A DNA stretch of 64,000 nt from Anaerolineae bacterium. GTDB taxonomy: Bacteria; Chloroflexota; Anaerolineae; Anaerolineales; Anaerolineaceae. The notes beneath the pieces were generated by a model, which was not told the origin of the DNA, made no database searches, and saw only the letters and a list, made by a program, of their open reading frames with translations. The position numbers and the translations under genes were made by a program. Positions within the stretch are counted from its first letter, which is position 1. Every line of letters starts with the position of its first letter. The stretch is from contig DUED01000011.1 of NCBI GenBank assembly GCA_011176685.1, positions 1 through 64,000 on the forward strand. The letters run 5' to 3'. Positions 4,905-8,614 of this stretch are shown one piece after another.

Positions 4905-4933
4905 TTGACAATAGAACAGATGTTCTGTATAAT
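4905..4933 (+). promoter_or_regulatory. Consensus sigma70-type promoter of the PolB operon, apparently giving a leaderless mRNA
   Basis: TTGACA (4905-4910) and TATAAT (4928-4933) are both perfect consensus and are separated by exactly 17 bases. A start site about 7 bases after the -10 falls at 4940, which is the A of the first ATG. The first gene of the operon would thus be translated from a leaderless message, and no Shine-Dalgarno is visible before it. Confidence 0.85.
4914..4925 (+). promoter_or_regulatory. Putative LexA (SOS) operator GAAC-N4-GTTC
   Basis: The palindrome GAACAGATGTTC lies in the 17-base spacer between -35 and -10, where a bound repressor would block RNA polymerase. GAAC-N4-GTTC is the core of the Bacillus-type LexA box (CGAACATATGTTCG type). 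The lexA gene is not in the window, so assignment to LexA is inferred from the motif and from the DNA-polymerase content of the operon. Confidence 0.75.
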
Positions 4934-4939
4934 AAGTGT

Positions 4940-5353
4940 ATGACCATCTGGCAGCAGTTGCGCACAGTGTTTGGTTCAGAGGCTCGTTCACGAAACCCCC
5001 AGCTGGACGAGGAACTGGTTAAATCTGTACGTGAGCTGGCGGAGCGTGAACAGCGCTCGCAGGACGAGGTCATCGTCAGTTTGCTCAGTCAGGCTATCCG
5101 GGAGCGGCGCGCTGCAGGGCGCAACTGGCAGCGCTGGCGGTTGCTCACTCCACGCGAGCAGCAGGTAGCAGCGCTGGTATGTCTCAACCTGACCGGGCGT
5201 CAGGTCGCTGCTAAGCTGTTCATCTCTCCCGAGACGGTCAAGACCCATGTGCGCAGCATCCTGCGCAAGTTCGACCTGGGTAGCCGCCAGGAACTGCGCC
5301 AGGTGTTAGCCGGTTGGGATTTCAGTGCCTGGTTGGAACTGGGAAATGGATAG
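4940..5353 (+). CDS. Small DNA-binding regulator: ribbon-helix-helix-like N-terminus plus LuxR-type HTH
   Basis: 137 residues. The N-terminal part (about 15-55, LDEELVKSVRELAEREQRSQ) resembles the ribbon-helix-helix of CopG-like repressors. The C-terminal part (about 70-130) is a GerE/LuxR-type helix-turn-helix, with LTPREQQVAALV and ISPETVKTHVRSILRKF. No receiver or ligand-binding domain is present. It is the first gene behind the SOS-boxed promoter and starts at the predicted transcription start. It could be an autoregulator or coactivator of the following RecA-like, small-protein and PolB genes. GC content and codon use are higher than in the neighbouring recO, in line with the rest of this operon. 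Confidence 0.8.
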   Translation: MTIWQQLRTVFGSEARSRNPQLDEELVKSVRELAEREQRSQDEVIVSLLSQAIRERRAAGRNWQRWRLLTPREQQVAALVCLNLTGRQVAAKLFISPETVKTHVRSILRKFDLGSRQELRQVLAGWDFSAWLELGNG

Positions 5354-5436
5354 ATGATCTAATATACAGGTAATCAGGGGTCGAAGCCACCATCCCTGGC
5401 TCACCCACAGAGGTTAACCAAAATTTCCCCTCGAAT

Positions 5437-5451
5437 CTCCCCTATGGGGAG
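5437..5451 (+). promoter_or_regulatory. Inverted repeat overlapping a Shine-Dalgarno-like GGGGAGG
   Basis: CTCCCC-TAT-GGGGAG can form a 6-bp hairpin with a 3-base loop in the 135-base gap between the regulator and the RecA-like gene. The 3' arm includes the purine tract GGGGAGG. The tract is correctly spaced only for a five-codon reading frame at 5464-5481 (MAVVP), not for the RecA-like gene at 5489. The short T-rich run after it makes a weak terminator or attenuator an alternative. Confidence 0.45.
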
Positions 5452-5488
5452 GATTTATTTTTAATGGCTGTTGTGCCATGATGGGTGC

Positions 5489-6025
5489 ATGGATGCACTG
5501 ACTTTACCCCTTACTAACAGTTTGCTGGTGCTGGTAGCGCCCCACGCAGCTAGTGCTCTCATGCTTGAACTAGCAGCGCGCCTGGCTGTGGCGGGCAGGC
5601 TGCGCGTGCTGGATGGTGGCAACTGTTTTAATGTGTACCCAGTGGCACGCGCTGTTCGCAGACGCACTGCTGAACTGCAAGCTGCCCTGGCACGCATCCA
5701 ACTGGCGCGTGCTTTCACCTGCTACCAGATGGCTGTCATGCTGGCGGAGGTGCCCTGCGATGGCGTACCAACGCTAGTAATTGACCTTCTGGCTACCTTT
5801 TATGATGAGAATGTCTCGCTGGCGGAAACGCGGCGCCTGCTGGATACTAGTGTGCATCATTTGCGCCGCATGAGCAAGCGCGCGCCAGTGGTGGTTAGTG
5901 CTAAACCGCCAGCGCCCATCTGTCCTGAGCGCGGCGTGCTGCTGGAAGAACTGCAGGATGCAGCCAGTCAGTCCTGGCAGATGGAACCGTTACCAGCGCC
6001 TGCCCCACCTATGCTGTGGGACTAA
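5489..6025 (+). CDS. RecA-superfamily ATPase-like protein lacking a Walker A motif (ImuA/RadA-like position)
   Basis: 178 residues, no confident family name. The layout is that of a RecA/Rad51 core. An N-terminal strand LLVLVAPH stands where the P-loop should be but has no GxxGxGKT. Next come VLDGGNCFNVYPVARAVRR (around 42-60), the RecA-like block RIQLARAFTCYQM (around 72-84) and a Walker B-like strand LVIDLLATFYDE (around 97-108). The C-terminus is Pro-rich (PAPAPPMLWD). I chose ATG 5489 over TTG 5471. It lies between the regulator and PolB in the same direction. By analogy with ImuA it may be a structural partner of the polymerase. That is inference only. Confidence 0.6.
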   Translation: MDALTLPLTNSLLVLVAPHAASALMLELAARLAVAGRLRVLDGGNCFNVYPVARAVRRRTAELQAALARIQLARAFTCYQMAVMLAEVPCDGVPTLVIDLLATFYDENVSLAETRRLLDTSVHHLRRMSKRAPVVVSAKPPAPICPERGVLLEELQDAASQSWQMEPLPAPAPPMLWD

Positions 6026-6054: not shown

Positions 6055-6321
6055 ATGGGACGCACATTACCCTCCATCACACAGGCTTTTATCCAAGAGC
6101 AGGAGGCATTTTCACGTTTCCGGCGTGCCCTGCGGCGCAGTGACCAACTGGTGTTGGATGAGCTGTTCGCCTCCGCGCGCAAGCATCTGGCAGCTGCGGC
6201 TTACGCTGCCCATGCCCTGCCCATGGAAACTTTTTTACTGGCGATGTTGCTGGAAGAACACAAAGAAGTGCTGCGCCTACGCCATCAGCTTGAGGCGCTG
6301 CTGGCGGAGCGCGATGGCTGA
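6055..6321 (+). CDS. Small helical protein, 88 residues, coupled to PolB
   Basis: I do not recognise a family. The sequence is almost entirely predicted helix (QAFIQEQEAFSRFRRALRR, then a second half with LRLRHQLEALLAE), with alternating charged and hydrophobic residues that could form a helical hairpin or coiled coil. It is 29 bases after the RecA-like gene, and its last 8 bases overlap the PolB start codon, so translation is probably coupled. Size, context and composition suggest an adaptor between the RecA-like protein and the polymerase. Confidence 0.6.
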   Translation: MGRTLPSITQAFIQEQEAFSRFRRALRRSDQLVLDELFASARKHLAAAAYAAHALPMETFLLAMLLEEHKEVLRLRHQLEALLAERDG

Positions 6322-8614
6322 GGTCAGCGGCTGGTTGCTGGACCTGTACGAGGATACCCGGGATGGCATTGTCCTGTGGTTGATTACTGACTTGGGTGAG
6401 CGCCTGCGTCTGCGTCAGCATTTTCCCATTCGCTTCTATGTTGCAGGCGGCGAGGACCAGCTAGAACGGGTGGAATGCTATCTCAACAGGCAATCCATCT
6501 CGCTTGCACTGCAGCGTGCGGAGCGGCGCGATCTTTTTCAAGTACATCCCTTGCAGGTGCTATCTGTTGAGGTGGCGCAAGCTGCCAGACAAGCGCTGCT
6601 GTTCAGGAGCTTGACCAGACGCTTCCCTGGCTTGGACTATTATGATGTCGACGTGCAGCTTTCCCTGCGCCATGCTGCGCAGTATGGCACTTTCCCGCTG
6701 GCGCGTTGCCGTGTGTCTTATGATGAAAACCACTGGCTGCAAGATCTGAGGGTGCTGAATTCCCCTTGGGAACTGGATATTGAGATGCCACCCCTGCGGG
6801 TGTTGCATCTGCAGCCGAACTGTGATCCCCAGCACGCGCCGCCGCAGGCACTGATCGCGCATGTCAGCGGTAAGGAGTACTGTCTTTCGCTGAAGCCAGG
6901 CCGCTCGCTGCTAATTAACCTGCGCGCCCTGCTGCTACGGCATGACCCTGACCTGCTGCTGACAATGTCGGGGGATACCTGGCTGCTGCCGTACCTGCTC
7001 AAATTAGCCAGCCGCCATAACCTGCCACTGCCGCTTAACCGTGAACCCGGGCGCGGCGTGCTCTTTAAAAAGGAAGGCACTTATTTCTCTTATGGGCAGA
7101 TAATTTACCGTGGACAGCAGGTGCTGCTCTATGGACGCTGCCATATTGACTGCCGCAATGCCATGATGTGGCAGAGCTACGACCTGGAAGGCGCGCTGGA
7201 GACTGCCCGCATTACTGCTCTACCCCTGCAGGTGGCGGCACGCGTTTCGCCCGGCACGGGTATCTCATCTATGCAGATCACCACTGCCCTGCGCAACCAG
7301 ATTATGGTGCCCTGGCGCAAGCAGCAGGCGGAAAGCGGCAAAACTGCCCTTGACCTGCTGTGCTACGACCAGGGTGGGCTGGTCTATCAACCGCTGGTTG
7401 GCTTACACTATGATGTGGGCATGATTGATTTCATATCCATGTATCCCAGTATCATGGTGCATTGCAACATTTCACCTGAGATTCCCATGCCGACCCGCCT
7501 GGGTGCTTCTGATCATCCGCCTGGTATAGTGCCGCTTACCCTGGCACCCCTGCTGGAAAAGCGCATTGCCCTCAAGCAGCGTGCCCTTGCCCTGCCGCCC
7601 TGGGATCCGCGCCGCAAGCTGGACAAAGCCCGCTCTTCTGCCCATAAGTGGCTGCTGGTGACCTGTTTTGGCTATCTGGGCTACAAGAACGCCCGCTTTG
7701 GGCGCATTGAGGCGCATGAGGCAGTTACCACCTGGGGGCGCGAAGCCCTGCTGCGTGCCAAGGAAGCAGCGGAGGAATTGGGTTTCACTGTGCTGCACAT
7801 GTACGTTGACGGCTTATGGGTTAAAAAAGAGGGCTGCCGCCAGCCGCAGGCTTTCCAGCCCCTGCTGGAGGAAGTCTCACGCCGAACCTGCCTGCCGGTG
7901 GCACTGGACGGCGTTTACCGCTGGGTGGCTTTTCTCCCTTCGCGTGTGGACGCACGCTGGCCGGTTCCTAACCGTTATTTTGGTGTTTTTCAGGATGGCT
8001 CTGTCAAGGTGCGCGGAATTGACCTGCGCCGGCGCGATAGCGCGCCTTTCGTTGCTGAGATACAGGAGCAAATGCTGCGCTGCCTGGCGCAAGCAAGCGA
8101 TATGGGGCAGATTGAAGAGAAAGTGGAGAAAGCGCTGGCGCTGCTGAGTCACTGGCTGGCGGACCTGCGCGCGGGGCGTGTGCCGCTGGAAAAACTGCTG
8201 GTGGGCAAGAAGCTCAGCAGGGAGCTGGGGGGCTACCGTGTGCCTTCACCCGGCGCGCGCGCTGCAATGCAGTTACAGGCGGCGGGTAAAACGGTGCGCC
8301 CTGGCCAGCGTGTGCGCCTGCTCTTCACGCGTGGTGAGCCCGGTGTGCACGCCTGGGATTTGCCAGATGCGCCCGACCCGCGCACATTGGACCTAGCTTA
8401 TTACCGCGAGCTGCTGCTGCGCGCTGCCGCTAATATTTTGCAGCCCTTTGGCATCAGTGAGGAAGTGCTGAAGGCTTGTGTCAATACAGATATGGGGGAA
8501 CAGTTACCTTTGTTAAAGCAAAGCACCGCTGGTTTTTCGGTTCCGGCTAAGATGCGCGTGCATCAGTTGAGAGGATGCGACCGGCTCTTGGTGGGTACAG
8601 CGGTGCGCGCGTAG
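6314..8614 (+). CDS. Family B DNA polymerase with degenerate exonuclease (PolB2-like)
   Basis: 766 residues from ATG 6314, which overlaps the upstream gene by 8 bases. The longer open frame back to 6125 runs inside that gene. Motif A is intact (D372 in IDFISMYPSIM). Motif B, normally KxxxNSxYG, is KWLLVTCFGY from K445. Motif C, normally YGDTDS, is YVDGLW (497-502), keeping only the second, metal-binding Asp (D499). In the exonuclease domain the Exo I DxE position reads LRVLHLQPN (from residue 161), and the Exo II block reads DPDLLLTMSGD. The proofreading carboxylates are therefore gone while the minimal polymerase carboxylates remain. This pattern resembles archaeal PolB2/Dpo2 more than E. 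coli Pol II. Placed behind a SOS box, it is most likely a low-fidelity or translesion polymerase. Confidence 0.88.
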   Translation: MAEVSGWLLDLYEDTRDGIVLWLITDLGERLRLRQHFPIRFYVAGGEDQLERVECYLNRQSISLALQRAERRDLFQVHPLQVLSVEVAQAARQALLFRSLTRRFPGLDYYDVDVQLSLRHAAQYGTFPLARCRVSYDENHWLQDLRVLNSPWELDIEMPPLRVLHLQPNCDPQHAPPQALIAHVSGKEYCLSLKPGRSLLINLRALLLRHDPDLLLTMSGDTWLLPYLLKLASRHNLPLPLNREPGRGVLFKKEGTYFSYGQIIYRGQQVLLYGRCHIDCRNAMMWQSYDLEGALETARITALPLQVAARVSPGTGISSMQITTALRNQIMVPWRKQQAESGKTALDLLCYDQGGLVYQPLVGLHYDVGMIDFISMYPSIMVHCNISPEIPMPTRLGASDHPPGIVPLTLAPLLEKRIALKQRALALPPWDPRRKLDKARSSAHKWLLVTCFGYLGYKNARFGRIEAHEAVTTWGREALLRAKEAAEELGFTVLHMYVDGLWVKKEGCRQPQAFQPLLEEVSRRTCLPVALDGVYRWVAFLPSRVDARWPVPNRYFGVFQDGSVKVRGIDLRRRDSAPFVAEIQEQMLRCLAQASDMGQIEEKVEKALALLSHWLADLRAGRVPLEKLLVGKKLSRELGGYRVPSPGARAAMQLQAAGKTVRPGQRVRLLFTRGEPGVHAWDLPDAPDPRTLDLAYYRELLLRAAANILQPFGISEEVLKACVNTDMGEQLPLLKQSTAGFSVPAKMRVHQLRGCDRLLVGTAVRA

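Follow-up and report, generated by a model that had tools for sequence, protein, structure and literature searches.

A PolB2 polymerase operon from an Anaerolineae bacterium with a predicted SOS promoter and a candidate LuxR-type activator

Results

The window, by which we mean the whole 64,000-nucleotide stretch of DNA analysed here, covers positions 1-64,000 of the forward strand of contig DUED01000011.1 from an Anaerolineae bacterium (GCA_011176685.1). On its + strand it carries four consecutive genes, encoding a small LuxR-type protein (4940-5353), iRadA (5489-6025), PPB2 (6055-6321) and a family B DNA polymerase with a dead exonuclease domain (6314-8614). The polymerase gene is an open frame of 766 codons whose first 8 nt are shared with the end of the PPB2 gene. 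A predicted sigma-70 promoter, TTGACA-17-TATAAT (12/12; 4905-4933, + strand), lies in front of the first gene as the putative operon promoter, and a LexA (SOS) box predicted by motif match, AGAACAGATGTTCT (4913-4926, + strand), sits wholly between its -35 and -10 elements. A first-pass annotation of this DNA had dealt with the polymerase; the operon, the LexA box and the regulator go beyond what it reported in that finding.

iRadA and PPB2 are known partners of PolB2 in the PolB2 mutasome (PMC11791011), and the order iRadA-PPB2-PolB2 seen in the window is the sole bacterial order reported there. iRadA, with its start chosen at ATG 5489, has a RadA/Rad51 fold without a Walker A motif and is a predicted mutasome subunit: it matches the RadA profile at 7e-7, its AlphaFold model (pLDDT 95.4) has RadA, Rad51 and Dmc1 as top Foldseek matches, and GK[ST] occurs in only 1 of 69 homologues. 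PPB2 (88 amino acids), likewise a predicted subunit, has the N-terminal MGRT arm found in 68 of 73 homologues, and its profile also matches a gene beside haloarchaeal PolB2 (1e-18 to 1e-20); the iRadA and PPB2 pair precedes PolB2 on haloarchaeal plasmids as well. A clamp motif has been described mostly on iRadA and sometimes on PolB2 (Timinskas et al. 2025, PMC11791011). None was found on the window iRadA, and a possible beta-clamp-binding motif, EQLPLLKQ (residues 729-736; 8498-8521, + strand), lies instead in the disordered C-terminus of the polymerase, where pLDDT is below 50. Over 73 loci such motifs occur at the iRadA end in 42, at the PolB2 end in 9 and at both in 5, a distribution much like the published one, short motifs of this kind being individually weak evidence.

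The polymerase matches the Pfam DNA_pol_B profile at 88 bits; its top NCBIfam model, PRK05761.1-2, gives 387 bits, under the equivalog cut-off of 516, and the best Pol II model gives 47 bits. In a palm-domain tree (LG+C20), in which archaeal PolB2 is represented by haloarchaeal plasmid copies and Sulfolobus PolB2 and PolB1 are left out, the window protein falls inside a bacterial clade (100/99) that is joined to haloarchaeal PolB2 (100/99). This grouping is starred; PolB3, E. coli Pol II and another bacterial PolB group fall outside it, and the last two carry flags for long branches. A family B tree had been proposed in the first-pass annotation; ours places the protein with archaeal PolB2 and not among proofreading Pol II enzymes. 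Judged from its sequence it is an ordinary PolB2 enzyme, and PolB2 is a kind of translesion polymerase that had been described before. PolB2 is present in 37 of 61 related genomes; further copies are mostly from Anaerolineae, with one in a deltaproteobacterial MAG (L048). Five loci from other Chloroflexota (L095, L096, L097, L099, L100) carry a separate family B group in which the proofreading and DTD motifs are canonical, and which may be the Pol epsilon-like bacterial group known from the literature.

The PolB2 family was described in 2008 (PMC2527604) and is defined by a change of YxDTD to HxxxD together with lost exonuclease motifs (PMC8764526). We aligned the window protein with 75 other bacterial PolB2, 5 haloarchaeal PolB2, E. 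coli Pol II and 3 archaeal PolB3; the PolB3 sequences are fragments that come from printed PDB alignments. The first-pass annotation had read Exo I as LRVLHLQPN and Exo II as TMSGD, both without catalytic carboxylates, and the alignment bears this out: in Exo I the Asp is replaced by Q167 and the Glu by N169, in Exo II the catalytic Asp is L224, the Asp of TMSGD being a separate conserved residue, D221, and in Exo III the Asp is also gone (G293). The catalytic Asp residues of Exo II and Exo III are missing from all 76 bacterial proteins, while at the Exo I positions Glu is kept in 48/76 and Asp in 56/76, so that the window protein, with Q..N, is more divergent than most. Motif A (DFISMYPS) includes D372, and D372 and the distal Asp of motif C, D499, are both retained in 76/76, exactly as numbered in the earlier annotation, which had noted their survival. 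The Asp of the D(K/R) motif, published as preceding the palm, is D352 here and is likewise found in 76/76, its neighbour being Gln in the window and Lys or Arg in only part of the bacterial set.

The readings of motif B as KWLLVTCFGY and of motif C as YVD also hold in this alignment. They had been called unusual, however, and here we differ, since they are the consensus of the family: the motif B changes Asn to Val and Tyr to Phe occur in 76/76 bacterial PolB2, and motif C (H495-M-Y-V-D499 in the window, with Tyr497 in place of the first Asp) starts with His in 73/76 and lacks the first Asp in 76/76 (Tyr 73, Phe 2, Ile 1). Such uniformity argues that the altered motifs arose neither by chance nor by local decay. 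Relative to the nearest relative, L047, dN/dS is 0.22 (dS ∼1.2) for the gene and 0.20 for the exonuclease-like domain, and values of 0.07-0.12 are obtained for closer PolB2 pairs, establishing that the gene is under purifying selection, the loss of which, together with a lack of polymerase activity, had been named beforehand as a finding that would count against the first-pass reading. GDTW and the palm residues are conserved. In the Exo II region (window 6959-6985) G220 and D221 of GDTW are each invariant (76/76), which argues that the dead exonuclease domain keeps a conserved non-catalytic role. A structure model, also suggested earlier, has a PolB fold (pLDDT 90) with archaeal PolB as the closest structures.

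The exact pattern GAACN4GTTC occurs once in the 64-kb window, at 4914-4925, and AGAACN4GTTCT at two places in the 2.08-Mb genome, whose own lexA start has a GAACN4GTTC motif. Among homologous loci the exact box lies within 250 nt of the first gene in 47 of 70, where 0.0045 would be expected per locus from a background of 11 sites in 706 kb; because these loci are related the count is a measure of conservation and not of 47 independent events. Retention of a LexA-type box in so many loci places bacterial PolB2, as far as sequence can tell, in the SOS response.

The gene behind this box encodes a protein of 137 amino acids in which an RHH-like segment (RHH_1, weak) is combined with a LuxR-type helix-turn-helix (GerE, 9e-14), and which we propose to be an SOS-induced activator of the mutasome. 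A C-terminal WDFSxW is conserved in the family alignment. The gene stands upstream of iRadA as a separate ORF in 46 non-redundant loci, and one further locus (L018) has a read-through frame; at L017, from the cultured relative Ornatilinea apprima, it is missing upstream. Strong homologues, taken as those over about 130 bits, occur in 22 of 61 genomes searched, all of them PolB2-positive, and in 0 of the 24 PolB2-negative ones (Fisher about 1e-6, computed with 21 and counting related genomes as independent).

Between this gene and iRadA lies a conserved promoter element, GGTTAACC (5412-5484, + strand), with C-tracts phased at 11-12 bp, a GGGGATT-like block near the -35 position and a TATGAT-like -10. 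Its consensus over linked loci is GGnnTAnCCC-TTCnCCC-TCACCC-GGGGATTG-17-TATGnT, and in the gaps of these loci a 10-12-bp spacing between C-tracts occurs 51 times, as against 6.6 expected. With a profile built from the linked loci, 4 of 5 genomes in which the LuxR-type gene is unlinked give 19-53 bits; the maximum is 8.8 bits over 10 genomes lacking the gene and 6.1 over 1234 random stretches. The element is found in 13 of 61 whole genomes, all of which have the LuxR-type gene (several of these genomes had also supplied training loci for the profile). The sole match in the window's own genome is the one before iRadA, so no second site that would point to a wider LuxR-type regulon was found there. 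Elsewhere, a strong second site in G049 lies next to a recombinase, in front of an iRadA-like start that is truncated, while those in G027 and G001 are weaker and look doubtful; we have set all three aside as signs of a wider regulon.

Inside the element is a terminator-like hairpin with a T-rich tail (5436-5452, + strand). Terminator-like hairpins with T-runs occur in 11 of 46 LuxR-type-iRadA gaps (0.9 expected), the others being L010, L019, L020, L023, L027, L031, L041, L042, L073 and L103; because they overlap the C-tract/GGGG element they may be either a by-product of it or an attenuator. At both predicted promoters the -10 ends 6-7 nt before the ATG (window 4928-4940 and 5477-5489), so that the mRNAs of the LuxR-type gene and of iRadA may have little or no leader.

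The position of the box follows the position of the LuxR-type gene, in groupings that were set after the data had been seen. Where the gene is linked, the box lies before it in 38/47 loci and before iRadA in 1/46. Where it is absent from the genome the box before iRadA is exact in 7/10 (counting L061, at -180) and has one mismatch in 3/10, and where it lies elsewhere in the genome there is an exact box at iRadA in 0/5. An exact box adjoins the unlinked gene in L119, L120, L122 and L123, and likewise the copies in L125-L130; none was found beside the gene at L118 and L121. The scoring of the element and a set of predictions for six further genomes serve as held-out tests. Those predictions, written down before the test, held in five, namely L044, with the gene elsewhere, and L021, L051, L028 and L048, without it; the sixth, L013, failed or is unsettled, the element being present and the LuxR-type gene not found in the 1.9-Mb MAG. 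There are two further exceptions: L064, with the gene elsewhere, nonetheless has a near-SOS box at iRadA and lacks the element there, and in L050 the gene is linked and the element escapes detection in leave-one-out scoring. The predicted iRadA core promoter matches at 7.9/12 positions in genomes with the gene as opposed to 9.9/12 in those without it, and these weaker -35 and -10 elements are the sole basis on which we propose activation and not repression.

Discussion

We interpret the locus as encoding an SOS-controlled translesion mutasome built on a bacterial PolB2, a reading to which we assign a probability of roughly 0.88. PolB2 membership, the lost proofreading residues, the two metal-binding Asp residues, the iRadA and PPB2 partners and the LexA-type box constitute its sequence-based part, and the following steps are drawn from characterised archaeal PolB2 and from published models. 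DNA damage would inactivate LexA; PolB2, iRadA and a PPB2 trimer would then come together as a heteropentamer where a primer end is stalled or mispaired, possibly on the beta clamp, and the assembled mutasome would extend that end without proofreading.

In this lineage LexA would act on the LuxR-type/RHH gene and not directly on iRadA-PPB2-PolB2, and the encoded protein would in turn activate the second, weak promoter before iRadA. A comparison across dozens of genomes points to a small DNA-binding protein that passes the LexA signal to the polymerase genes, and we regard it as fairly probable that Anaerolineae have such a two-step SOS relay, from LexA through an RHH/LuxR-type activator to a separate iRadA-PPB2-PolB2 promoter; the evidence is one of correlation among related genomes. 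A possible but doubtful alternative is that the LuxR-type protein binds DNA as a structural subunit of the mutasome, or comes merely from an SOS gene that happens to stand in front, with the LexA promoter the only one in use. The conserved WDFSxW tail suggests protein contact, and linked loci have all their genes closely spaced and in one direction. The read-through frame of L018 also speaks for a subunit; the LuxR C-terminus is disrupted there, however, so that the fusion may be a lesion, and its value as proof of a physical subunit is weakened. A subunit or a single promoter would, moreover, leave unexplained the LexA box at iRadA in genomes without the gene, the restriction of the phased element to genomes that have it and the terminator-like hairpins in the gap.

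Less likely by far is that PolB2 is catalytically inactive and has a structural role only, as was proposed in 2008 on the ground that the first motif C Asp is replaced (PMC2527604), which it is throughout the bacterial set. Against this stand the universal retention of D372 and D499 and the fact that PolB2 of S. islandicus and S. solfataricus, which lack the same Asp, are robust polymerases (PMC8764526). The S. islandicus enzyme is active and exonuclease-free, extends mismatched or lesion-blocked primers, and combines high insertion fidelity with poor insertion opposite lesions (PMC8764526); it is responsible for damage-induced mutagenesis (PMC7390963). We found no functional study of any bacterial PolB2 in the literature. 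The window polymerase is probably an active, selected enzyme that lacks proofreading. Changed fidelity or lesion tolerance had been predicted from motif B; lesion tolerance would fit the PolB2 family, but by analogy with the published homologue a general change of fidelity is not expected, the likely phenotype being extension from mismatches and lesions.

Among bacteria the family B polymerase is usually Pol II, which in E. coli is under SOS control, but that the protein is an ordinary Pol II which lost proofreading recently is scarcely credible, as the palm-domain tree rules out this identity and the profile scores and operon partners speak against it as well. Nor can we give any real weight to a decaying gene, for which the lost motifs and the divergent Exo I might be cited, given the open frame, the dN/dS values, which rule out a random pseudogene, the conserved GDTW and palm residues and the intact promoter with its LexA box. 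The description of a selectively degenerated polymerase therefore stands in so far as the gene is selected, but the degeneration is not singular to it, being common to PolB2.

Like archaeal PolB2 (Sulfolobus Dpo2), the window enzyme has lost its Exo motifs, has a motif C of the form HxxxD, is accompanied by iRadA and PPB2 and belongs to a damage-responsive operon, the last predicted here from the LexA box. It differs in belonging to a bacterial clade, in an exonuclease-like domain larger than that of the very short enzymes of Sulfolobus and in having Tyr for the first motif C Asp, where the haloarchaea tested and, as published, S. islandicus have Ile; its predicted control is of LexA type, whereas archaeal PolB2 has orc1/cdc6 neighbours. 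E. coli Pol II has the family B fold and SOS-type control in common with it, but proofreads, retains canonical exo and DTD motifs and is separate in the tree. The ImuA-ImuB-DnaE2 and UmuD'2C-RecA mutasomes resemble the operon in that an error-prone polymerase under SOS control is paired with a RecA/Rad51-like protein (PMC11791011, with general background). Their polymerase families and partners are different ones. To our knowledge neither of those operons includes a dedicated activator gene.

If the relay is real, error-prone synthesis would, compared with genes directly under SOS control, set in later or only above a threshold; in lineages without the activator the LexA box stands at the mutasome promoter itself. 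A dedicated activator of this kind, placed between the SOS switch and the mutasome genes, would make a simple and testable circuit that holds mutagenesis back until damage persists. In E. coli mutagenesis is delayed by post-translational steps acting on UmuD. PolB2 is itself a recently recognised mutagenic polymerase system, and the bacterial PolB2/G2 mutasome of PMC11791011 has the same gene order and MGRT arm as the window, which differs in the LuxR-type/RHH gene placed in front as a fourth gene, in the element before iRadA and in the location of the clamp-like motif on PolB2. The four-gene, two-promoter arrangement is apparently new and the LuxR-type protein apparently undescribed: neither LuxR nor GerE appears in the main text of that paper, whose supplements may hold an earlier notice, and a literature search with supplements outside its scope found no paper combining PolB2 with LuxR. 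Two further loci carry the regulator without the complete triplet behind it. L123 (G041:C663:1-5000) has a LexA box and the element at a second LuxR-type-iRadA pair, which is followed by a uvrC-like gene, with no PPB2 or PolB2 directly after. At L121 (G016:C20:158000-164500) the LuxR-type gene lies in window-like surroundings (GlmU, Cdd, RecO and a WD40-like lipoprotein) with iRadA-PPB2-PolB2 on another contig, the triplet having moved away or been lost from this place and the regulator having stayed.
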